Virus record (IMG/VR): IMGVR_UViG_3300035698_015192
Coordinates: 1-46,125 of that record
DNA length: 46,125 nucleotides
Origin: a virus
Strand: one strand, 5' to 3'
Shown piece after piece: positions 1,886 through 36,410 of this stretch. The position numbers and the translations under genes were made by a program. The notes beneath the pieces are model-generated. The model was given only the letters and a program-made list of their open reading frames with translations. It did not search any database and was not told the DNA's origin. How positions within the stretch are numbered: position 1 is the first letter of the stretch; each line of letters opens with the position of its first letter.

Positions 1886-1919
1886 TAGCACATTGTCGAG
1901 TCCAAGTGGAACTTGATTA

Positions 1920-4037
1920 ATGTTTACTATTGATTCAGAACTTCTGCCACCTCCTCACTTATCATGGAAGAAGGTATTAGCGGGCCTTCCAGAAGATAGA
2001 CAGAATCAAATACTTGATGCATTTCAAGATGATGAAATGGCCTCATTAGTTAGTGATTGGTTCTTCACCGCACGACGAGAACAATTCACACCACAAGGAA
2101 ATTGGTTCATTTGGCTTATTCTAGCGGGCCGAGGCTTTGGAAAAAATTGGGTTGGCAGTAATTGGATCAGTAATGAACACCAATTCGGAGGAGCACAGAA
2201 CTCAGCTGTAGTCGCACGGACTGCTAGTGATCTTCGAAGAACCTGCATTGAGGGACCCTCCGGCATCATGGCAGTTGCAAGTTCTGATTTCTATCCTGAA
2301 TATAAACCTTCCTTATCAAAATTAGTCTGGCCTAATGGAACGGAGACTCAACTCTATACTGCAGACAAACCAGAAAAGCTTCGTGGTCCGAACCACGATA
2401 GAGCCTGGTGTGATGAATTATCCTACTGGCGTTATATGGATGATGCTTGGGATAATCTTATGATGACACTCCGTTATGGGATTGATGTGCGATGCATTAT
2501 TACTATGACGCCACGGCCACTGAAGGCAATTAAGGAACTTCTCAAACGCGATGGGAAGGATGTTATTGTTACTCGTGGTTCAACTCTTGATAATCAAGAT
2601 AATCTTTCCCCAAAGTTCATTGAACAAATCAAAGAACAATATTATGGGACTCGTCTCTGGCAACAAGAGGTTGAAGGGGCTTTCCTCGAAGATATGGAGG
2701 GAGCTTTATGGAATCGCAGTATGCTTGACAAGAATCGTCGTCAAGAGGAACCTGAAAGCTACATCCGTAAGATAATTTCTGTTGATCCCTCGACAACAGG
2801 GGGAGAAGATGCAGATGAATGTGGAATTGTTGTTGCAGGCCTTGGACGAGATAAACATGCCTATATTCTTAATGATCTTACCCTTCGTGCAAGTCCCAGA
2901 CAATGGGCAACTGTAGCCGTTCGTGCATACTTTGATGAAGAAGCGGATCTCCTCGTCGCTGAGAAGAATCAGGGAGGTGAGATGATTAAGGAAACTATCC
3001 ACAGTATTGATGATACTGTGAATGTTAAGCTCGTTCATGCTTCCCGTGGCAAGGATATTAGAGCAGAGCCTGTAGCATCACTTGACGAACAAGGCCGCAT
3101 TCATCACGTTGGCATGTTTCCGGATATGGAGGATGAAATGTGTGTTGCTTGGAATACACACGTTTTAACGCCAAGGGGTAATAAGTTAATCTGTACACTT
3201 AAACCAGGCGATTACGTCATTACGCGAGAGGGTCCAAGAAAAATAATTTGGTCTGGACATACCGGAATAAATGTGGTACAATCGTTAAATGGATTGGAGT
3301 TAACTAATAATCACCCAGTCTTATGCAACAATACTTTTATTCCCGCAGATCAAGTAAAAGGAAATCTTCTTAAATGCAATGCCACAATCCCATCTTACGA
3401 TTTAAAAGACCTCATGTCGTTTATGATGGATATCGTTTTTTCCAAAGACAAACAGATCAATATTGGGAAACAAGTAGAAGTAAAGGATATTTACTCCTTC
3501 ATCGCTACATTTGGGAACATGCAAAGGGACCCATACCTGGAAACTGTATTATCCACCACAAAGATAGAGACCGAGCTAATAATGGAATCGAAAACTTGGA
3601 ATGCGTTACTTATAAACAACATAAAGCAATTCATGGACCCAGTGGATTTGCACTCCATACTAGAGAACAGCGTTCAGAAATATCAAAAGCTGGTTGGAAA
3701 AACAGAAGGCTTATTCAAAAAGAGTGCTATTGGTGTGGAGACTTCTATTTTGCCAGTCATGGAAGAAGTAGATATTGTAGCAAATCATGTGCTCACCTTG
3801 GATGTAGAGACGGCGGTAAGTTCTTTCCTAGACAAAGTAACGTTGACTTGGAATCTTAAAGTAGAAGATTGTCCTGAATTCTTTGCAAATAATATTCTGG
3901 TACACAATTGTAGTTTCATTCCAGGCGACCCTATCAATTTATCCCCCAATCGCATGGATGCGAGGGTTTGGGCCATTCATGAACTCATGCTTGTTCGTAG
4001 AAAGAGAGCAGGTACTTGGGGTAGGAGAGCAGCATGA
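1920..4037 (+). CDS. terL: terminase large subunit with in-frame intein
   Basis: This is the motor and nuclease that pumps DNA into the procapsid. The precursor is 705 residues; removing the intein (residues 408-663) leaves a 449-residue terminase, a usual size. The ATPase has a Walker A-like GRGFGKN (70-76, with N in place of the usual T or S), a Walker B AWCDE (D165, E166) and a TPRP coupling motif (197-200). The RNase H-like nuclease starts at SVDPSTTGG (D289) and ends with SPNRMDARVWA after the intein. The intein splits the nuclease domain between EDEM and CSFIPG. An HNH gene sits inside the intein in another frame. The stop overlaps the portal start (ATGA). Confidence 0.93.
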   Translation: MFTIDSELLPPPHLSWKKVLAGLPEDRQNQILDAFQDDEMASLVSDWFFTARREQFTPQGNWFIWLILAGRGFGKNWVGSNWISNEHQFGGAQNSAVVARTASDLRRTCIEGPSGIMAVASSDFYPEYKPSLSKLVWPNGTETQLYTADKPEKLRGPNHDRAWCDELSYWRYMDDAWDNLMMTLRYGIDVRCIITMTPRPLKAIKELLKRDGKDVIVTRGSTLDNQDNLSPKFIEQIKEQYYGTRLWQQEVEGAFLEDMEGALWNRSMLDKNRRQEEPESYIRKIISVDPSTTGGEDADECGIVVAGLGRDKHAYILNDLTLRASPRQWATVAVRAYFDEEADLLVAEKNQGGEMIKETIHSIDDTVNVKLVHASRGKDIRAEPVASLDEQGRIHHVGMFPDMEDEMCVAWNTHVLTPRGNKLICTLKPGDYVITREGPRKIIWSGHTGINVVQSLNGLELTNNHPVLCNNTFIPADQVKGNLLKCNATIPSYDLKDLMSFMMDIVFSKDKQINIGKQVEVKDIYSFIATFGNMQRDPYLETVLSTTKIETELIMESKTWNALLINNIKQFMDPVDLHSILENSVQKYQKLVGKTEGLFKKSAIGVETSILPVMEEVDIVANHVLTLDVETAVSSFLDKVTLTWNLKVEDCPEFFANNILVHNCSFIPGDPINLSPNRMDARVWAIHELMLVRRKRAGTWGRRAA
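3141..3908 (+). mobile_element. intein in terminase large subunit, splicing domains split by an out-of-frame HNH gene
   Basis: The intein is 256 residues. It begins with Cys408 (CVAWNTHVLTPRG), has a block B-like NNHPVL with the expected His, and ends with block F/G KVEDCPEFFANNILVHN followed by Cys+1. All nucleophiles and the penultimate His are present, so it should splice. The recognisable splicing parts are only about 78 N-terminal and 24 C-terminal residues. The roughly 155 residues between them resemble no endonuclease and are the alternate-frame reading of the HNH gene at 3374-3859. Self-splicing is family knowledge, not shown here. Confidence 0.93.
3374..3859 (+). CDS. HNH homing endonuclease nested out of frame inside the terminase intein
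   Basis: The 161-residue protein is a full HNH endonuclease of the phage type. LLHRYIWEHAKGPIPGN leads to the metal-binding CIIHHKD (H61, H62), NNGIENLECVT (N74) and KQHKAIH (H83, H87). A C-terminal zinc-finger-like part follows, with C118, C121, C135 and C139. It starts at ATG right after an in-frame TAA (3371-3373), with AAGGAA about 10 bases upstream, and its TAA falls inside the last intein block. Its codon position 1 is the terminase codon position 3 (-1 frame). Such enzymes cut intein-less alleles to spread their host element. Here it must be translated separately. Confidence 0.88.
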   Translation: MQCHNPILRFKRPHVVYDGYRFFQRQTDQYWETSRSKGYLLLHRYIWEHAKGPIPGNCIIHHKDRDRANNGIENLECVTYKQHKAIHGPSGFALHTREQRSEISKAGWKNRRLIQKECYWCGDFYFASHGRSRYCSKSCAHLGCRDGGKFFPRQSNVDLES

Positions 4038-5395
4038 GTAATACTGATGAGAAGGTAATAAGCATTCGTGCAGCGAGAAGTTTCATATCAACAATTCTGA
4101 AAAGAACACAGTTGGCTCAACAAGCGGGTAAGACTTATGATGGTAATAGAGACCTTTATAAGATACTCGGCTATAAAAGGCTTTTAGAATTCACAGATTA
4201 CCAGGATCGCTACGATAGAGGTGATATTGCTGCAAGAATTGTTGATGCCTTCCCTTTAGCAACGTGGAGAAATCCCCCAATTGTCAAAGCCGTTACAAAT
4301 CATCCAACTTTCGATAAGGCTTGGTTGAAACTTGAGAAGGATTTCTCAATCTTCCATTATCTTGAGCGCAGTGATCGCCTTTCAGGCATAGGTCAGTACG
4401 GCATTCTTCTTATGGGATTTTCTGGAGGGGTTTCTCTAGATAATACCATGAAAAAGTCCTCTAAGTTAATCTATTTATCACCTTATCACCAGGGACATGC
4501 ACCTATTTCTAGAATAGTTGAGGACCCTACAAATGCTCGTTTTGGTCTTCCTGAAGCGTATAAGATTACCTTAACTACTACTACTAATAACTTACAAAAC
4601 ACCTCAGTTTTAAGAGAGACTGAAGTTCATTGGAGTCGTATTCTCCACATAGCTGAAGGGCTTAACGAAGATGAGGTTTATGGTGCTCCTCGAATGAGTA
4701 AGGTTTGGAATCGCCTCGACGACTTGGAAAAAGTTATTGGTGGTTCTGCTGAGGCTTTTTGGAGAACCATGGATCGTGGAATTCAGTTCGATGTTGATAA
4801 GGATATGGATCTTGAGCCTGAAGAAGAAGATGCATTCACTGCTGAGATTGAGGAATACGTACATAATTATAAGCGTTATATTCGGACTAAGGGAATTACA
4901 GCAAATGTCCTTGGTTCTGATGTAGCCGATCCAAGTGGTATCTTCAGCGCCATTGTTAGTATGATTTCAGGTACTACAGGTATACCTCAAAGAATCCTTA
5001 TGGGTTCTGAAATGGGACAGCTTGCCAGTTCTCAAGATGAACGAAACTTTGTTGCAAGGATTAAGGAACGACAAGAGAACTATGCGGGTCCTCGAATCCT
5101 CCGTCCCTTTGTTGAACGGTTGATTTCCACAGGAGCTTTACCAGAACCTCGCGGAGGCATTGCCTTCGAGTGGCCCGACCTTAGCATTCAGAGTCATAAA
5201 GAAAAGGCGGATGTTGCAGCTCGTATGGCCCAGGCAATTGCTAATGTTGCAAAGCATACTGCGCAGGGGGGAATGCCCCTGATTACTGCAAAAGAGTTCC
5301 GTAAGTTATATCTTGGTATTGAAGATGAAATTGATATGAAGGATATACCTAAGGTAATAAAGGCTCCGGTAGTTAAACCTCCTGTAGTAGGATAA
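4034..5395 (+). CDS. portal protein, DUF1073-like
   Basis: This 453-residue protein follows the terminase with an ATGA overlap, the usual place for the portal, the dodecameric ring through which DNA enters the capsid. The N-terminal part (LLEFTDYQDRYDRGDIAARI, then VDAFPLATWRNPP) matches the DUF1073 family of phage portals as I remember it. A central GTTGIPQRILMGSEMGQLAS and a C-terminal helical part are also typical. No active site is expected. A few proteins of the wider family carry an extra cyclic-nucleotide hydrolase domain (Acb1), but none is apparent here. Confidence 0.82.
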   Translation: MSNTDEKVISIRAARSFISTILKRTQLAQQAGKTYDGNRDLYKILGYKRLLEFTDYQDRYDRGDIAARIVDAFPLATWRNPPIVKAVTNHPTFDKAWLKLEKDFSIFHYLERSDRLSGIGQYGILLMGFSGGVSLDNTMKKSSKLIYLSPYHQGHAPISRIVEDPTNARFGLPEAYKITLTTTTNNLQNTSVLRETEVHWSRILHIAEGLNEDEVYGAPRMSKVWNRLDDLEKVIGGSAEAFWRTMDRGIQFDVDKDMDLEPEEEDAFTAEIEEYVHNYKRYIRTKGITANVLGSDVADPSGIFSAIVSMISGTTGIPQRILMGSEMGQLASSQDERNFVARIKERQENYAGPRILRPFVERLISTGALPEPRGGIAFEWPDLSIQSHKEKADVAARMAQAIANVAKHTAQGGMPLITAKEFRKLYLGIEDEIDMKDIPKVIKAPVVKPPVVG

Positions 5396-5401
5396 ATAGA
5401 T

Positions 5402-5629
5402 ATGAAATATGTTGAAAGTACTTCTGACCTACGCACAGTTAATAATACTATGCGTCATCAATATAAAGTATTAACTGATGTTGAGAAAGGTAACATGACA
5501 GCTATTAAAGATATTGGTTTACACTTTCATGACCATGTAACGAGTCTTGGTAATAGTAGAGAACTTTCCTTAGCTAAAACTAAGATTGAAGAAGCTGTTA
5601 TGTGGACTGTAAAGCATATCACCGGATAA
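5402..5629 (+). CDS. Acb2/Tad1-type cyclic nucleotide sponge (anti-CBASS/anti-Thoeris)
   Basis: The 75-residue product matches the Acb2/Tad1 hairpin family as I know it: QYKVLTDVEKGNM, then AIKDIGLHFHDHV, then the signature SRELSLAKTKIEEAVMWTVK near the C-terminus (about residues 52-71). Family members bind and sequester the cyclic oligonucleotide signals of CBASS, and related proteins bind the gcADPR signal of Thoeris, so host effectors are not switched on. It lies between portal and protease genes in the late operon, and its TAA overlaps the start of the QueC homologue by one base, so the two are likely co-translated. Which signal it binds cannot be read from sequence. Confidence 0.8.
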   Translation: MKYVESTSDLRTVNNTMRHQYKVLTDVEKGNMTAIKDIGLHFHDHVTSLGNSRELSLAKTKIEEAVMWTVKHITG

Positions 5630-6273
5630 TGCCTAAAGATGCAACTCTAGTAATGTTGTCCGGAGGACTTGATAGTACAACTTTACTATACAAACTTCTC
5701 AGTGAATCTCAAACACCAATCCACGCTCATTATGTTCACTATCAGAATACTGAAGGCAGATCTGAATGTGAAGAAATGGCAGTTAATAGCATAGTAAATT
5801 GGTGTCAGAATAATATTCGTTCTTTTGAATTCTCACGAAGCACTATGGATTTTTCATCTTTCATTAATATTCCTTGGGACTATCAAGTACTTAGTTTTAT
5901 GGCAGCACAAGTTACACTGTTGCACGGAGGAATTAATCGAGTTGCGTTTGGTCTTGAGGCTAATGAAATTGATTATACTCTATGGGGATTGAACTGGACA
6001 CATGGGAGGAACATTTTCGATACTGTGCATCGCCTCACGGAAGATCGAGCAGATTGGATATTTCCCATTAGTGGTATGTCAAGGGAAGATGAGTTTAAAT
6101 ATCTTCCCCGTGAGTTGTATGATCGCACCTGGAGTTGTAGAGTACCTTATAAAACTGACTATGTATACCAACCTTGTAAGGAATGCCGTACCTGCCTGGA
6201 AACTGAAAAACAACATCTTCCTTTTCCCTTAGGTAGACCAATCAGCGGTTATACAGTTGGAATAGCAAGTTGA
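5629..6273 (+). CDS. queC: QueC-like 7-cyano-7-deazaguanine synthase
   Basis: The 214-residue protein has the PP-loop ATP pyrophosphatase motif SGGLDSTT at residues 11-18 and the QueC zinc site near the C-terminus (WSC, then CKECRTC). QueC turns 7-carboxy-7-deazaguanine into preQ0 with ATP and ammonia. Phages use this pathway to put 7-deazaguanine bases in their DNA. No QueD, QueE, FolE or DpdA-like transferase was found here, so the substrate must come from the host or the protein has a variant role. QueC-like proteins also occur in some defense systems. ATG 5629 overlaps the previous stop; an upstream in-frame start at 5602 would run through that gene. Confidence 0.82.
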   Translation: MPKDATLVMLSGGLDSTTLLYKLLSESQTPIHAHYVHYQNTEGRSECEEMAVNSIVNWCQNNIRSFEFSRSTMDFSSFINIPWDYQVLSFMAAQVTLLHGGINRVAFGLEANEIDYTLWGLNWTHGRNIFDTVHRLTEDRADWIFPISGMSREDEFKYLPRELYDRTWSCRVPYKTDYVYQPCKECRTCLETEKQHLPFPLGRPISGYTVGIAS

Positions 6274-15626: not shown

Positions 15627-16309
15627 TTTCAATTATCATGCCTTATTGGGATAGACAAGACTTACTAGATGCTAATCTAGCAAGAATGAAAATTCTATAT
15701 CCACATTATGACTTGGAAATTCTTATTATCAATGATGGTTGGCAGGGGAAATATGTTGTAAAGGATACATATCCTTGGAGAATTCGTATCTACGATATGC
15801 CGGATAAGTTAATTGCTAAAAACTCATGCGTTCCTTTGAATATGGGAGTTGAACTTGCCAATGGGGATATCATTGTTTTAACTAATCCTGAAGTTATCCA
15901 ACGCCAACCAATCTTAGACGGTATGGAAGGTGAATTAAAAAAGCTTGGTAAACGGGGCTACGTTGCAGCTTCTGTTTGGGATGTTGAGGGTAGCAAATGG
16001 CTTTGTCATACAAGCCATCGTACGCATATTACAGTACCTGCTAATGCTGGCCTTCCTCTTTTCTCAATGATGTATAAAGAATTCTTCCAAAAAGTAAAGT
16101 TCAATGAATGTTATAGAGATGGTTTTGCATTTGAAGATAATGATTTTCTTTGGCGGCTTTGGGAAGTAGAAGCTAAATTCAAAATCTGTGATGATCTTAC
16201 TGTGAATCATTACGCTACTAAAACGGATTGGCCTTCAGGAAGTTGGGAAAGAAATAAAGAAATCTTCAGGAATAAGTGGCTACCAATAGGAGACTTGAAA
16301 AGTGAATGA
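15623..16309 (+). CDS. family 2 glycosyltransferase
   Basis: The 228-residue protein has the GT2 (GT-A fold) start ISIIMPYWDRQDLLDANLAR, IINDGW for the first aspartate, LANGDIIVLTNPEV in place of the DxD region, and a late FAFEDNDFLWRLWE, the usual acceptor-site ED motif. It would transfer a sugar from a nucleotide donor to a glycan or protein. It lies in the island with other transferases and overlaps both its neighbours. Confidence 0.75.
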   Translation: MISIIMPYWDRQDLLDANLARMKILYPHYDLEILIINDGWQGKYVVKDTYPWRIRIYDMPDKLIAKNSCVPLNMGVELANGDIIVLTNPEVIQRQPILDGMEGELKKLGKRGYVAASVWDVEGSKWLCHTSHRTHITVPANAGLPLFSMMYKEFFQKVKFNECYRDGFAFEDNDFLWRLWEVEAKFKICDDLTVNHYATKTDWPSGSWERNKEIFRNKWLPIGDLKSE

Positions 16310-16949
16310 TCCAATCTTAATAACGGGTTGCGCACGTTCTGGCACCAGTATGATTGCAGGCATATTCAACTTATGCGGTGCTTTTGGAGGAGATATGAGA
16401 GGAGCAACTTCCTACAATTCTAAAGGTATGTTTGAGAATAAGTATATTGTAGATGAAGTTGTTAAACCTTACTTGAGTCGTATGGGCTCAGATCCTATGG
16501 GGCAATATCCTTTACCGGATCAAAGTAGAATTAGTCTTATGCCCAATTTCCGCAGCATTATTATGAATGTGTTTATGGATCAAGGTTATAAAGAAGGTCC
16601 TTGGTTTTACAAAGGCGCAAAAATGTGCCTTGTGTGGAAATTGTGGAATGATGCCTTTCCTAATGCTAAGTGGATTATTGTTCGAAGGCCAGATGAGTCC
16701 ATCATTAAATCCTGCATGAATACTCCTTTCATGCGAGCTTATACAGATAATGACGGCTGGCAAGGTTGGGTAGATTATCATAAAGATAGATTTGAAGAAC
16801 TTGAATCTTTAGGTGCCCTGCCCATTTGGTCTGACCTTGTTATTAAGGGGCAATTCAATGAAATTAAATATGCTGTAGAGCAATGCGGTCTTGAATGGAA
16901 TGAAAATGCTGTTGAAGATTTTGTAGATAAAACTTTATGGAATTATTGA
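16302..16949 (+). CDS. sulfotransferase family protein
   Basis: The 215-residue protein starts at GTG 16302 with the PAPS-binding P-loop ITGCARSGTSMIAGIF (about residues 6-21), continues with MFENKYIVDEVV, and has KWIIVRRPDESIIKSC, the usual 3'-phosphate-binding strand (RRPDESIIKS). These are the marks of cytosolic sulfotransferases and glycan sulfotransferases. Together with the glycosyltransferases next door it suggests that a sulfated glycan is made. The acceptor is unknown. Confidence 0.72.
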   Translation: MNDPILITGCARSGTSMIAGIFNLCGAFGGDMRGATSYNSKGMFENKYIVDEVVKPYLSRMGSDPMGQYPLPDQSRISLMPNFRSIIMNVFMDQGYKEGPWFYKGAKMCLVWKLWNDAFPNAKWIIVRRPDESIIKSCMNTPFMRAYTDNDGWQGWVDYHKDRFEELESLGALPIWSDLVIKGQFNEIKYAVEQCGLEWNENAVEDFVDKTLWNY

Positions 16950-31521: not shown

Positions 31522-32717
31522 TTTAAATGCTCCTCTTGTAAAGATATGTAAAGTTGACCACCATCTTGATTATAACTTATCAATCCTGCACCGTTTAGAG
31601 AATCCATACATTTCTCAAAAGTTTCATAAGTTATTTTCCTCATGAATTCTCTATAAACTTTATCTTTAGTAATTTTAGCTTCAGTTCTAATGTAGTTTAA
31701 TATCTCATCCGTTATATAAGATTCTTTCTCCCTACCAGCGTTGCGATAAATTTGAGGCATATCTTTTTCTATCTTAAGCAATTCTTCATTTGCAAATATA
31801 ATGTCTTCTTTCTCTATGAATAATTCATTTCTGCGAGAAGCTGCTATTACTATTGCAAGCTTGTGCATATGAGTTTGCTTTCTCGCAAGATAGCCCTGAA
31901 ACTTTTCATCGGTTAGATGAGGACTTCCCTTTTCATATAATTCATTATACCAATTCTTACCCCATATGACTGCATCATTGGTCAGTTTATATTCTCCATG
32001 CAAGCTTGCAATTATACTAAGATCTTGAAGAAGTTTAGTTCTAGCTTCTTTAACATCATCTCCATATTCAAGAAAAGGATAAGCTACTAACCTATGCTTA
32101 GTTTCAGCATAAACGAAAATAGATCGACTTGCAAAGCCTCCACCAGAGAAGTATTCAGTAACATTTTCTGCTACCCAACTTGGAGTAGTGCATCCAATGA
32201 TGTTGATCCAAGGATTGATGATAGATTCCTCACCATCTTGTTTTGTTAATTTCTCCCACGCGCCAGTCTTACCATCCCATAAGGATACAAGTACATCAAT
32301 CATTTCCCTGTTACGAGGATCGAGAAAAGTTCCCAGTTCTGAAGCTACAATAGTTATAGCAGACATTGGTTCAAAACCACCTTCTCCATCTGGCATGTCC
32401 TCACGAATTTCACTGAGTCGTTTTACAAGAGCCTGCCAGGAAGTTGCAGCAGGACCCAGATTGATGCTAGCTATTTCTCCAAGTATGCTCATACCAATAT
32501 CTGCGGTTGTGGACTTTGCAACAATTCCAGGCGGAGCCACAAGGAATATAAAAAAGTTAGGATACCATTTAAAATAACCCATATTGATGTGTACTCGTCT
32601 GCGAAGCGCACCGGCAATAGTAGATATTCCTGCCCAATAATGGAAATGTGGTGGAGCTTCGCTGTGAGAAGTAAATTCAATGTAAGCTTCTAACCAGTCG
32701 TTGAACCTACGCTTCAT
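31518..32717 (-). CDS. DUF3987-like P-loop ATPase, possible replicative helicase
   Basis: The 399-residue protein has FIFLVAPPGIVAKSTTADIG, a Walker A variant (about residues 52-71), and TIVASELGTFLD as a Walker B-like strand, then IIGCTTPSWVAEN, the pattern of DUF3987 phage and plasmid proteins thought to be helicase or primase-helicase related. A C-terminal winged-helix-like part (ILNYIRTEAKITKDKVYREF) follows. It lies between polymerase and reductase genes and overlaps both by a few bases. Confidence 0.7.
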   Translation of the reverse strand: MKRRFNDWLEAYIEFTSHSEAPPHFHYWAGISTIAGALRRRVHINMGYFKWYPNFFIFLVAPPGIVAKSTTADIGMSILGEIASINLGPAATSWQALVKRLSEIREDMPDGEGGFEPMSAITIVASELGTFLDPRNREMIDVLVSLWDGKTGAWEKLTKQDGEESIINPWINIIGCTTPSWVAENVTEYFSGGGFASRSIFVYAETKHRLVAYPFLEYGDDVKEARTKLLQDLSIIASLHGEYKLTNDAVIWGKNWYNELYEKGSPHLTDEKFQGYLARKQTHMHKLAIVIAASRRNELFIEKEDIIFANEELLKIEKDMPQIYRNAGREKESYITDEILNYIRTEAKITKDKVYREFMRKITYETFEKCMDSLNGAGLISYNQDGGQLYISLQEEHLK

Positions 32718-34374
32718 ATTTTACATCTGTAAATGGATCACTGATATCTCCCCAACTTACTTTACTAGACTTTATATCAACTGGAATGATTAAAGGATCA
32801 TCATAAGGTACTGTAATTTCCATAAGCTTTTTAATGTCTTTGAATATTTCTGGACACTGTTCATTAGGAATTTGCATCAATATCGAGTCATGAATTTGTA
32901 GTAAAAGTTGAACTCCAGGATAGAATTTCCTAATAGCGAGCATACCTTTGAAGGTAATAATAGCAACTGTCGAATTTCCTGTTACTGATATTTCATTGCC
33001 ATTCTTTATCATAAAATAACCAGTAGAAACAGTAGGGCATCCAACTTTTACCAATTTATTAGATTTTTCAAATGAGGCTTTAGTAGCACTATGTTTCCCT
33101 TTATTTGGAGCTATCGTAATCCTATAAACAGGATTTTTTCCTCTATCATCAATACTAAGCCACCTTACTCTTTTATTTCTTAAAGCCGCTATAGTAGCAA
33201 TCCATTCACAATTACTTCTATGTTTAGAACTATACCATAATTCTCCTTGTGGAGAACGCCAACCATCCCAAAATTCTAATTCCTCTAAAATAGCATCTAA
33301 AGTTTCTCCCGACAACCGCAACAACCAACTTCCATATTTTTTATAAGTTAAACTTAATCCATGTTTACCTTTAGGAATGTAGAAAGTAGTTGCTCCTCGT
33401 CTTACTATATTTCGAGAATGTGGAACTTCGAGTTCATCTAATATATTTTGTAATCTTTCTATTTTTCTAGTTTTCTGAAATTCAAATTGAATAGCATCCC
33501 GCTTGATATCAAAACACCCATCAGCTTGTAATGCTACTATATAGTTAACTAAAGCTCTTGGAAAAGTTACAGTTCCATTATAATAACCTCCTCTAGGAAT
33601 TCTAGCGCCTTTAGGTAAATTTGCAGGATAAGCTCTTTTTAAATTTTTACGTCCTGCATTATAATATGGAATTACATGATTTTGTGTGCATTTGTAATTT
33701 AAATTCTCCATAGTATATAATTTATCAGTTTGCCCAAAATTCCATTGTAAAGGTACTTCAAAATTTATAATACCTTTATCATTCCACACAGCTATTTCAG
33801 TGAAAGATTCTATATCTTTTATTTTAACCCAACCCTGTTTTGTTAATACTTCATTATCAACTGGAACGCATTGAGGAATCCACGCAAGAGCCTGGGGAAG
33901 AAGTCCCTTTACTCGATTCATATAATAACGTTGGAAGCCGAATTGATTAGTTACTGTATTAGTCTTATATAATTCAGACTCTATTCGTTTGTGCCATTCT
34001 AAAATACCAGGATGTAATTCAAACCAACGTTTTATGAATTGATCTGCTTCATTAACAGTTATTCCCAACTCTATTGCAAGAGTTCTTGCTTTCACTCCGT
34101 AATCGACTGCATGAACTCCAACCTTTGCACGTTGACGTTCAGGTTTTGTTATGTGGGTTTTATTGAAGATGAGTTTGCCATTCTCAGTATGTAGATCCAA
34201 TTTTTCTCGAAAGATTTGTTTAAGTGTTTCATCATCAGCCTCCCACGCCACGACCTGCGCATCAGCTTGGGCAAGATCCCCTTCAACTATAGTGTATCCT
34301 TCATCAGGAATGAAGATCTTACGAATGTTTGGCAGTTCTATGGTTGTGGCGACTATGTTACATACTCCTCTAAA
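32707..34374 (-). CDS. polA: DNA polymerase A, C-terminal half (palm and fingers), with intein
   Basis: This frame opens after a TGA at 34375-34377 and holds FIPDEGYTIVEGDLAQAD (motif A Asp), RQRAKVGVHAVDYGVK (motif B, O helix) and LLLQIHDSILMQIP (motif C, HDS instead of the usual HDE). There is no ATG, GTG or TTG before motif A; GTG 34251 would lose the catalytic Asp. AGGAG at 34369-34365 sits 8 bases before an ATA (34356), a possible rare start. The intein (32974-33870) interrupts IPQ|STVAII. Together with the upstream gene it makes a normal UDG-PolA protein. Confidence 0.85.
   Translation of the reverse strand, partial: FRGVCNIVATTIELPNIRKIFIPDEGYTIVEGDLAQADAQVVAWEADDETLKQIFREKLDLHTENGKLIFNKTHITKPERQRAKVGVHAVDYGVKARTLAIELGITVNEADQFIKRWFELHPGILEWHKRIESELYKTNTVTNQFGFQRYYMNRVKGLLPQALAWIPQCVPVDNEVLTKQGWVKIKDIESFTEIAVWNDKGIINFEVPLQWNFGQTDKLYTMENLNYKCTQNHVIPYYNAGRKNLKRAYPANLPKGARIPRGGYYNGTVTFPRALVNYIVALQADGCFDIKRDAIQFEFQKTRKIERLQNILDELEVPHSRNIVRRGATTFYIPKGKHGLSLTYKKYGSWLLRLSGETLDAILEELEFWDGWRSPQGELWYSSKHRSNCEWIATIAALRNKRVRWLSIDDRGKNPVYRITIAPNKGKHSATKASFEKSNKLVKVGCPTVSTGYFMIKNGNEISVTGNSTVAIITFKGMLAIRKFYPGVQLLLQIHDSILMQIPNEQCPEIFKDIKKLMEITVPYDDPLIIPVDIKSSKVSWGDISDPFTDVKYEA
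32974..33870 (-). mobile_element. LAGLIDADG intein in DNA polymerase A
   Basis: The 299-residue intein starts CVPVDNEVLTKQGWVKIKDI, has a block B-like CTQNHVIPYY, one good LAGLIDADG motif (ALVNYIVALQADGCF, about 106-120) and a weaker second (ILEELEFWDGWR, about 194-205). It ends NEISVTGN before Ser+1, so the first extein residue is a Ser and the penultimate residue is Gly. The site is ahead of motif C in the most conserved part of the polymerase. Confidence 0.92.
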
Positions 34375-34415
34375 TCATAATTAGCATATTCATTATGAAC
34401 TTTATACATAGTCAT
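34353..34415 (-). CDS. 20-codon mini-ORF in the break of the polymerase gene
   Basis: ATG 34415 overlaps the TGA of the polymerase N-terminal gene (TGATG) and the frame reads MTMYKVHNEYANYDLEEYVT, then TAG. The last codons contain GAGGAG, a possible ribosome binding site for the C-terminal polymerase half. It may act as a translational bridge, be a relic of an inserted element, or be chance. It is in a third frame relative to both polymerase parts. Confidence 0.35.
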   Translation of the reverse strand: MTMYKVHNEYANYDLEEYVT

Positions 34416-36061
34416 CACTGATCCTCCAACTTATTCCCCGAAGGAATTGTCTGCATATTCGCTCCCGTTCCAAATATGGTTTTTGAACTACTAAGTCTAA
34501 AGGTCTCAACATTCGCAGGATTCAGTGAAGTTCTCATTCTATCATCTGGATCACGCTTTGCCATAATGAAGTTTGAACGAAAGACTCCAAGAGAACGAGA
34601 TTCAATAATAGCATCTAGTAAGGGAACTAACATTGGCTGGCGATATTTAAATACTTTCAATGCTTCATCATCACAGACTGGTCCCTTTCTACCTTTTCTA
34701 AATATCTTCCTCATGCTAAAATCATTATACATTAATTTATTCATTTGTGGATTCGAGCGAGGATTGAGAGGATGATTTAGAACTGTTTCAAACCATGAAG
34801 ATCTCTGCGACAAAGCTTTCATAAGTTCAGTGTCTAGTATATTTACTGACTTAGTATTTACTTTAATCCCCCTAAGCATCATTTCTAACAATGGTCCATG
34901 AAGATCTATGAGTAATTGGTACTGTTCCTTTAACCCCATTGCAGCAATTACATTAAGCAATGCATTATGAGCTTCGAACGTAAAGCAGCAGTCCTTGCAA
35001 TTATATGCCCATTGAACATTCTCGGTATCTTCATTTCGGATTATTACTTTTCCCTCTTCCTTCCAGAACGTGTAATAATCACAATAGAATGAAGCTACGA
35101 ATGCTAAGGACTTACCCTTTAAGTGTGTATCATTACTAATTCCAGAAAAACATGTATGTTGTTGAACCTGTGTATCTCCAAAGAGATTAGGAAGAAATCC
35201 CCACTGTCTTGCAATGTGTTGAATATCAAAAACACCGTTTGCGAAGATGCCTTTACTGTTCATCATGAACTTTCGCAGGCGTTGAGTTATTTCAATCTCC
35301 TCACTCCTAGACCAATAACCTTCTTTCCTACTACAACAGGTTATAGGAATGCACATAGCTTCAGTATTAGAAACACCAATACCAACACAGTCTATTTTTC
35401 CACTCCAAGTCTCAATATCTTCTGCTACTATTTTTCCTTCATGTTTATCTAAAAATGCAAATACCTGATCTAAGGTCGGGCGAATATGGAAGTTATACTT
35501 TGGCAGTTTGATTTCAGGATATTTTGCTTCTTCCCTGCACCGCCGCAAATCTTGAACCATAATCCAACGCCAAGGCCAATTACGGGTAATGGCTGCAGGA
35601 TTGAATGTAGGAATCATCTTACTTCCTACATCCATTATAGAACCGCGCCACTTTGTTATTCCGTACTCCCCAGAAAGTGCCCACATTGGAGTATTCCCCA
35701 TTGCTACAATGAGGTTAGGTTGCATTTCTGCAATAAGTTCTTTAAGTTGAGTTATACCGTCGAGTATGTCCTGAGAAGGATATCGTCCAAGATAAGCTGT
35801 TAGACCAAGTTTCTTAGCTTCTTTTTCTTCCGTGAAACAGGCCTCAATTGAGGGTCCTTCTTTATAATAAGGTGCTATTCCATGAAGTATATTAGTATAA
35901 AAGCAATCATTAGGAATGATGCCAGCTTCGAATAACATATTGTCTAGTTCTTGTCCTGACCATCCTACAAACGGCTTCTGTTGATCTAATTCATCTGGAC
36001 CTAAAGCCTCCCCCACTAGAAGTATTTTAGATTCCCGATCTCCCTTGGTTATTGGCTTCAT
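34415..36061 (-). CDS. polA: UDG-exonuclease-DNA polymerase A, N-terminal half
   Basis: The 548-residue product joins a family 4-like uracil-DNA glycosylase domain (VGEALGPDELDQQKPFVGW, about residues 16-34) to a 3'-5' exonuclease-like domain (IVAEDIETWSGKIDCVGIG, D215 and E217) and the thumb and motif 1 of PolA (VETFRLSSSKTIFGTGANMQ). Fusion of UDG and PolA is known in phage such as SPO1. The second UDG motif reads PTFNPAAITRN with Asn where His is expected. ATG 36061 follows GGAGA; an upstream ATG at 36139 would overlap the prior gene by 113 bases. Confidence 0.83.
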   Translation of the reverse strand: MKPITKGDRESKILLVGEALGPDELDQQKPFVGWSGQELDNMLFEAGIIPNDCFYTNILHGIAPYYKEGPSIEACFTEEKEAKKLGLTAYLGRYPSQDILDGITQLKELIAEMQPNLIVAMGNTPMWALSGEYGITKWRGSIMDVGSKMIPTFNPAAITRNWPWRWIMVQDLRRCREEAKYPEIKLPKYNFHIRPTLDQVFAFLDKHEGKIVAEDIETWSGKIDCVGIGVSNTEAMCIPITCCSRKEGYWSRSEEIEITQRLRKFMMNSKGIFANGVFDIQHIARQWGFLPNLFGDTQVQQHTCFSGISNDTHLKGKSLAFVASFYCDYYTFWKEEGKVIIRNEDTENVQWAYNCKDCCFTFEAHNALLNVIAAMGLKEQYQLLIDLHGPLLEMMLRGIKVNTKSVNILDTELMKALSQRSSWFETVLNHPLNPRSNPQMNKLMYNDFSMRKIFRKGRKGPVCDDEALKVFKYRQPMLVPLLDAIIESRSLGVFRSNFIMAKRDPDDRMRTSLNPANVETFRLSSSKTIFGTGANMQTIPSGNKLEDQ

Positions 36062-36410
36062 TCTTAATTCTCCAAAGTTCCTCTGCCTGACAACAATGCC
36101 CCTTTTGTCCGTATGTGTCGGATAGTCCTGATTGGGCACTTAGCACCACTAGCAATTGTTGATTTTCATCTATATACTCGTTCCATAAGGTGGAGTATAG
36201 TTTTCTGCAAGCTTCTACATTAATGGGCTTACGTCCCTTAGCTTGACGCCAAGTTAATTGTGTAGAACCATCTTTAAATATCTTAGAAGCTTGATATATT
36301 GTTTCTATGGATTTATTATCTCGCTGTTTTATTCTTGCAGCAAAGGCAGAGAATCTTCTATCTCCGCGCGATGAGCATTCATAGTAGGGTGCCTTCCCAA
36401 ATCTTAACAC
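36027..36410 (-). CDS. conserved phage hypothetical protein
   Basis: The 127-residue product has LRFGKAPYYECSSRGDRRFS, FAARIKQRDNKSIETIYQAS, LTWRQAKGRKPINVEACR and a C-terminal LSDTYGQKGHCCQAEELWRI. I recognise this as a recurring phage protein type with no known function. The highly patterned basic and aromatic residues suggest an enzyme or nucleic acid binder. It overlaps the polymerase gene in the same operon, so a DNA-related role is likely. Confidence 0.65.
   Translation of the reverse strand: MLRFGKAPYYECSSRGDRRFSAFAARIKQRDNKSIETIYQASKIFKDGSTQLTWRQAKGRKPINVEACRKLYSTLWNEYIDENQQLLVVLSAQSGLSDTYGQKGHCCQAEELWRIKNEANNQGRSGI

Follow-up and report, generated by a model that had tools for sequence, protein, structure and literature searches.

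A predicted HNH homing endonuclease gene nested out of frame in a phage terL intein recurs in a widespread class of elements

Background

Mobile inteins are usually described as a single polypeptide that performs both splicing and homing. The locus studied here raises the question of whether the two functions can be divided between separate proteins that share the same DNA. In the window, which is 46,125 bases long and constitutes an entire IMG/VR virus record, the large terminase gene terL contains an intein with no endonuclease in its own frame, and a complete HNH gene lies out of frame within it. We favor the reading, with a probability of about 0.86, that this is a mobile terL intein and that its proteins for splicing and for homing arise by separate translation of two overlapping frames; the splicing, the separate translation, the cutting and the activity of the window copy are what we infer.

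Results and discussion

An intein without an endonuclease in its own frame

The window terL, intein included, is a single uninterrupted ORF of 705 codons (1920-4037, + strand) that matches the Pfam families Terminase_6N (5.9e-24) and Terminase_6C (1.6e-09). The N-extein (1920-3140, +) ends in ...FPDMEDEM, in agreement with uninterrupted relatives (..LEDQM|C), and the C-extein (3909-4037, +) starts with CSFIPGDPINLSPNRMDARVWAIHELM, as indicated by the ORF listing and by the uninterrupted relatives. The insertion point is exact, with ..LEDQM|C.F.. unbroken in 72 of 80 relatives of the window terL. Between the exteins lies an intein of 256 residues (3141-3908, +; residues 408-663 of the TerL ORF) that runs from C1 to N256 and is followed by C+1. 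It matches phrog_30251 (2.3e-11), a terL family with an intein, and bears the hallmarks of class 1 inteins, namely C1, TNNH in block B, the C-terminal FANNILVHN and C+1 at 3909.

AF2 folds both halves of the Hint splicing domain at high confidence and does not fold the linker between them. The N-terminal half (residues 1-82, 3141-3386, +), which includes block B T55NNH58, is modeled with a pLDDT of 94-98 over residues 1-70 and of 82 over residues 71-80, and matches Hint_2 (4.7e-06). The C-terminal half (residues 231-256, 3831-3908, +), ending in FFANNILVHN, reaches a pLDDT of 95-97 and is recognized by the C-block HMM (7e-19). The stop-free linker (3387-3830, +) has a pLDDT of about 50, no recognizable fold and no family match in the intein frame. 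When the intein model was searched with Foldseek, the top matches were solved inteins (probability 1.00), the gp41-1 intein among them. No endonuclease family was found in the intein's own frame, which sets the element apart from canonical bifunctional inteins; it also departs from the split-intein layout, in which the N and C halves occupy separate ORFs, as the window terL is one ORF from 1920 to 4037. The initial annotation had proposed a terL intein at 3141-3908 that has good splicing blocks at both ends but lacks an endonuclease in its reading frame, and this is borne out by the sequence, the profiles and the Hint fold model.

A complete HNH gene in the -1 frame

The nested gene (3374-3859, +) encodes 161 amino acids in the -1 frame (offset 2) relative to terL. 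Its product matches Pfam HNH_3 (PF13392, E=1.5e-17) and phrog_15471 (2e-19), and is modeled by AF2 with a mean pLDDT of 86. The HNH_3 catalytic domain spans residues 41-84 (3494-3625, +) and comprises H61, H62, N70, N74 and H83, with H87 just beyond; a Cys4 zinc-finger-like motif follows (C118, C121, C135 and C139; 3725-3790, +). The start ATG at 3374 is immediately 3' of an in-frame TAA (3371-3373) and is preceded by a candidate ribosome binding site, AAGGA (3358-3362, +), whose distance of 11 nt from the ATG is long for a Shine-Dalgarno (SD) site. An HNH protein with H61, H62, N74, H83, H87, a Cys4 finger, an ATG of its own after a TAA and a ribosome binding site had been claimed from the letters alone; its coordinates and residues, as well as the ATG after a TAA, proved correct. 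The best structure match of the HNH model is I-HmuI (1u3e), although it is weak (Foldseek E=0.012, TM 0.32), and the PADLOC 'HEase' profile also matches. By its catalytic residues and family profile, the product is a predicted HNH_3 / I-HmuI-like homing endonuclease.

Two frames are open over the same bases, as first noted, and this is more than codon usage would give. Synonymous-codon shuffles of the window intein frame produced a mean of 8.7 stops in the HNH frame, where none is present, and none of the 5,000 shuffles was stop-free. When the HNH protein was recoded with the codon usage of the window genome, the intein frame was open in 0.5% of draws; when the HNH's own codons were shuffled, it stayed open in 5.7%.

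A recurrent class of terL inteins

A starting tblastn survey of phage genomes with the window HNH matched Tetrasphaera phage TJE1, Acinetobacter phage Highwayman, Rhodobacteraceae phage LS06-2018-MD07 and one unannotated fecal phage. The matched DNA of the three named phages carries no annotation beyond 'large terminase' or 'terminase large subunit'. Each of the four phages has its HNH out of frame within a terL intein, with the offset seen in the window. For the survey of the class we scanned viral and bacterial contigs with five HNHs and checked the loci with HMMs of the splicing blocks. Nested elements were initially defined by one ORF covering both blocks; to avoid circularity, the survey was then run again with stops disregarded. 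It returned 168 distinct elements with an HNH between the intein N- and C-blocks, where distinct means different HNH DNA only, so that counts are not independent origins; members are mostly metagenomic contigs. The intein frame is fully open in 150 of the 168, and each of these 150 has its HNH at offset 2. The other 18 have an interrupted or split intein, with the HNH at offsets 0, 1 and 2 in 4, 6 and 8 elements, respectively. The distribution of stops is bimodal: 150 elements have none, 9 have 2-14 and 9 have their N- and C-blocks in different frames.

A second survey started from the intein, with a 6-row alignment as query, and found 52 nested elements among 64, together with 7 mini-inteins, 2 split inteins and 1 in-frame HNH (L319). 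Alignments were needed here: the window intein or HNH, used as single proteins, had no match among the viral contigs. Across both approaches an in-frame HNH was met in two inteins only, L319 and L238, the latter in a portal protein and both outside the group of the window HNH. The host of L238 is apparently a T4-type portal protein, and the two inteins are possible outgroups for the question of origin.

The hosts of the class are TerL proteins throughout, from several TerL families, and the insertion sites are LEDQM|C, D(N)H|C, RGPQF..W|C..DELAAW and SPDRLDA|C..VW. We take D(N)H|C to be the RuvC site and RGPQF..W|C..DELAAW to be Walker B, the insertion sites presumably being catalytic motifs of terminases.

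The finding of the same overlapping frame in related terL inteins had been proposed as a check, and it is met with in 150 distinct elements; we consider this recurrence decisive evidence that the nested layout is beyond chance. Recurrence also rules out a sequencing or frameshift artifact, since the -1 layout is found in these 150 elements, in the isolates TJE1 and Highwayman and in the MD07 phage genome. Relatives with the HNH in frame, which would likewise have spoken for an artifact, are essentially missing, as only L238 and L319 have this arrangement and neither belongs to the group of the window HNH. The nested layout is a widespread and little-recognized kind of selfish gene, neither an artifact nor a one-off.

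Several members of the wider family deserve mention in their own right. In L036 and in L080, one terL carries two nested-HNH inteins at separate sites. Interrupted or split terL inteins with an HNH gene or remnant between the halves were seen in L055, L057, L072, L088, L089, L094, L095, L100 and L101, and further in L105, L212, L219, L225, L231, L244, L246, L247 and L253. Many of these are in Bacillota or their phages, their frame is unconstrained, and a remnant occurs for example in Brochothrix phage BL3. A 263-residue intein of the same family with no HNH match in any frame (L287:19-810) is possibly a decayed nested element.

Unequal constraint on the two frames

Over 70 distinct nested HNHs, the intein frame contains no stop in 12,235 codons, versus 138 expected from synonymous shuffles, and such shuffles would leave it open in only 11 of the 70. 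Split and free-standing HNH relatives have stops at the level of the shuffles (91 versus 87 and 118 versus 117, respectively). The third frame of the 70 nested HNHs holds 1146 stops. These counts suggest that the offset is fixed because only that partner frame can be emptied of stops by synonymous choice.

Substitutions between nested pairs are most frequent at the wobble base of the HNH, corresponding to the second codon position in the intein frame (for example 46/31/107 and 53/49/108), and HNH identities of 71, 66 and 65% go alongside linker identities of 32, 37 and 37%. Both observations indicate that the HNH is conserved and that the linker drifts provided it remains stop-free. The catalytic and zinc-binding residues (H61, H62, N70, N74, H83, H87 and the four Cys) are invariant in 50 relatives. 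As judged from these comparisons, the HNH frame is under purifying selection in the nested class, and the intein frame is kept free of stops by selection while its linker drifts. The initial annotation had named the lack of purifying selection as a sign of an artifact or relic; for the class this is contradicted. For the window copy the comparison is with its sole near relative, L007, which has the same HNH subtype at the same site and shows 60/52/72 changes by codon position, a weak test at a distance of 41% HNH identity. With one distant relative available, selection on the window copy rests mainly on residue conservation and on the open-frame statistics.

These data bear on whether the HNH frame is a relic, that is, a formerly active enzyme decaying within an intein that still splices. 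Loss does happen, as attested by the 7 mini-inteins among 64 and by the long HNH-less L287, and the window HNH has no close relative, its own selection being barely tested. Decay of the window copy is nevertheless unlikely, since all its catalytic and zinc residues are intact, its 161 codons contain no stop against an expectation of 8.7, and wobble-biased change is found throughout the class.

Mobility and origin

Indirect evidence of homing comes from the comparison of Highwayman, whose terL is filled, with Acba_21, whose terL is empty. The terL flanks are identical beyond 163 nt on the 5' side and 13 nt on the 3' side of the insertion; within these limits there are 8 changes in the 163 nt before and 7 in the 13 nt after. 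Both the intein and the HNH are absent from Acba_21 in the 4.1 kb examined. Flanks of this kind are expected after gene conversion by a divergent donor, and in this one pair, from a lineage other than that of the window, they indirectly point to homing. In phage records no DNA-level relatives of the window terL region were found.

Free-standing relatives of the HNH adjoin terL or terS in seven phages (BP10, PAE1, CL2, EauM-23, SN1, FBPa53 and Shemara), and that of BP10 is 50% identical to the Highwayman HNH. This neighborhood, and the description of HNH proteins as components of the packaging machine (Kala et al. 2014, as cited in PMC12613952), would fit a nested HNH that serves as a terminase packaging cofactor of the HK97 gp74 type, encoded beside terminases, rather than as a homing enzyme. 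We hold such a role to be quite improbable. Acba_21, with a flanking terL nearly identical to that of Highwayman, does without intein and HNH, as 72 of the 80 relatives of the window terL do without the intein; the HNH matches homing enzymes in profile and fold searches (PADLOC 'HEase' and I-HmuI 1u3e), and the co-converted flanks point to homing.

Distances between inteins correlate with those between HNHs (Spearman 0.25) more than HNH distances do with TerL distances (0.10), all of them being saturated. In the HNH tree, nested and split elements cluster, with 9 and 4 changes where shuffling gives 35 and 14, and the tree gives no direction. Two origins had been put forward, a frame change from a fused ancestor and the invasion of a mini-intein by an HNH gene. 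The second fits better and the first less well. It is plausible that a free-standing HNH gene beside terL invaded a mini-intein at its own target, after which the stops would have been cleared, or the intein split by breakage.

Making the HNH protein

SD motifs precede 44 of 115 HNH-frame ATGs, compared with 14 of 171 ATGs that lie in the same stretch but in other frames (p=1e-9), with a clear SD in fewer than half of the nested HNHs. Slippery heptamers in nested elements show no phase preference (26/24/23). The enrichment of SD motifs and the lack of phase bias at slippery sites favor separate initiation over frameshifting.

Programmed -1 ribosomal frameshifting would instead yield a TerL-intein-HNH fusion with no internal initiation, and it has in its favor that the offset is always the one reached by a -1 shift and that some members have no clear SD. 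We find it very improbable: besides the heptamers and the SD enrichment, in the window a TAA directly precedes ATG 3374, and stop-codon geometry accounts for the fixed offset, with split members using all three offsets. An RNA-level group I intron with an HNH ORF, for which the open terL frame would be incidental, can be practically dismissed: HNH_3 enzymes are often found in group I introns, but Rfam intron models matched neither 1900-4100, even with the threshold relaxed to E<=1, nor the whole window at gathering score, the intein N- and C-blocks, the Hint fold and C1/HN/C+1 are present, and intein-frame stops are selected against across the class.

A model for the nested intein

Separate translation of splicing and homing proteins from overlapping frames, as initially claimed, is therefore the best-supported reading, and three tests that could have overturned it did not. 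Translation in the terL frame would give a precursor in which the Hint halves (approximately residues 1-82 and 231-256) come together over an unstructured linker of some 150 residues, excise the intein and join the TerL exteins. A second ribosome would begin at ATG 3374, from its own SD site inside the intein, and produce a separate homing endonuclease with an HNH domain and a zinc finger. This enzyme would cut terL alleles that lack the intein in co-infecting phages, and the entire 768-bp element would be copied in during repair. The HNH takes the usual place of an endonuclease between the splicing halves, always at the one offset that gives a partner frame in which stops can be avoided without altering the enzyme.

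It seems somewhat probable, beyond this, that these elements form a previously unrecognized major class of mobile inteins, dominant in the sampled terL intein group and present in phages of very different hosts, with separate splicing and homing proteins. One offset would in practice be permitted, because synonymous change can rid its partner frame of stops, while the third frame is stop-rich and split inteins would be the only other escape.

Splicing and homing proteins that share DNA and yet are separate could be regulated, mutated and lost independently. Since wobble changes in the HNH always alter the linker, the class is a naturally occurring test case for overlapping genes whose constraints differ, in which the HNH protein is conserved and the linker has only to avoid stops. 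The class also suggests how split inteins could arise, by a stop in the linker frame, and how the nested elements themselves probably originated, by a free-standing HNH near terL landing in a mini-intein. Annotation shows a long terminase only and misses the HNH enzymes; TJE1, Highwayman and MD07 are deposited as 'terminase' at this place.

Other features of the window

An apparent second intein lies in a PolA ORF (32707-34251, - strand), between ..LAWIPQ and STVAIITFKG; it starts with CVPVDNEVLTKQGW and ends with ISVTGN, followed by S. It includes an in-frame LAGLIDADG-like stretch, VNYIVALQADGCF, and appears canonical, in contrast to the terL intein of the same genome; no Pfam intein family matched this candidate. 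DNA polymerase A extends over two ORFs (34415-36139 and 32707-34251, -), with a frame break (34251-34415, -) between ..NMQTIPSGN and ..LPNIRKIF and stops in between; an assembly error, a small insertion or a gene that is split could each account for the break. The polymerase exonuclease/PolA ORF at 34415-36139 (-) carries at its N-terminus a fused domain of the uracil-DNA glycosylase superfamily. Directly downstream of the portal gene is a QueC/PP-loop ATPase-like ORF (5602-6273, +), and a weak match to the sulfotransferase family is found within the structural gene region (16302-16949, +).

Comparison with known systems

The element shares with canonical bifunctional inteins of the PI-SceI type the host-gene logic, the Hint blocks, the location of the endonuclease between blocks B and F, and, as predicted here, homing. 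In those inteins the HNH or LAGLIDADG endonuclease is in frame and part of the intein polypeptide, whereas the window encodes it as a protein of its own, in the -1 frame. Split inteins accompanied by a free-standing endonuclease have been described for fractured genes (Dassa et al. 2009, as cited in PMC8228797). There too splicing and homing polypeptides are separate and the endonuclease gene lies between the intein halves, and our 18 interrupted or split relatives resemble these. However, fractured genes have the host gene and the intein broken in two, while the window terL and its intein are continuous and the endonuclease gene overlaps them.

The nuclease belongs to the family of I-HmuI-type HNH homing endonucleases (1u3e being the best structure match), and its free-standing relatives adjoin terL, as do free-standing homing endonuclease genes with collaborative homing (PMC10448857). 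Those enzymes are intron-encoded or free-standing, unlike the window HNH, which overlaps a spliced protein. HNH-encoding terL inteins have been noted in cluster J mycobacteriophages (PMC3706429), and an out-of-frame HNH insertion is annotated in phage Applejack (PMC12613952). No intein whose endonuclease lies in an overlapping frame is described in the searchable literature; outside that search is 'Non-Canonical Architecture' by Gosselin, Arsenault and Gogarten 2025 (bioRxiv 10.1101/2025.01.02.630785), which PMC11855218 cites for overlapping frames in actinobacteriophages. From that citation, this work on actinobacteriophage inteins may describe out-of-frame intein endonucleases that are part of the present class.

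The layout had first been thought to have no well-established equivalent, a view that has to be tempered, as it is a widespread class with a partial published precedent: the ShiLan domain and the Pacc40 gp60 insertion, which are out-of-frame HNHs in phage DNA methylases (Arsenault, Gosselin and Gogarten 2025, PMC11855218). As in the window, the HNH lies off the host frame in a phage gene that is open throughout the insertion, and the spotty distribution of ShiLan is taken as homing (PMC11855218). No splicing domain is detectable in these insertions, which therefore remain part of the protein, and no SD was found (PMC11855218). The window class, in contrast, has a complete Hint intein, an essential TerL host, an enrichment of SD motifs and one offset in 150 elements.
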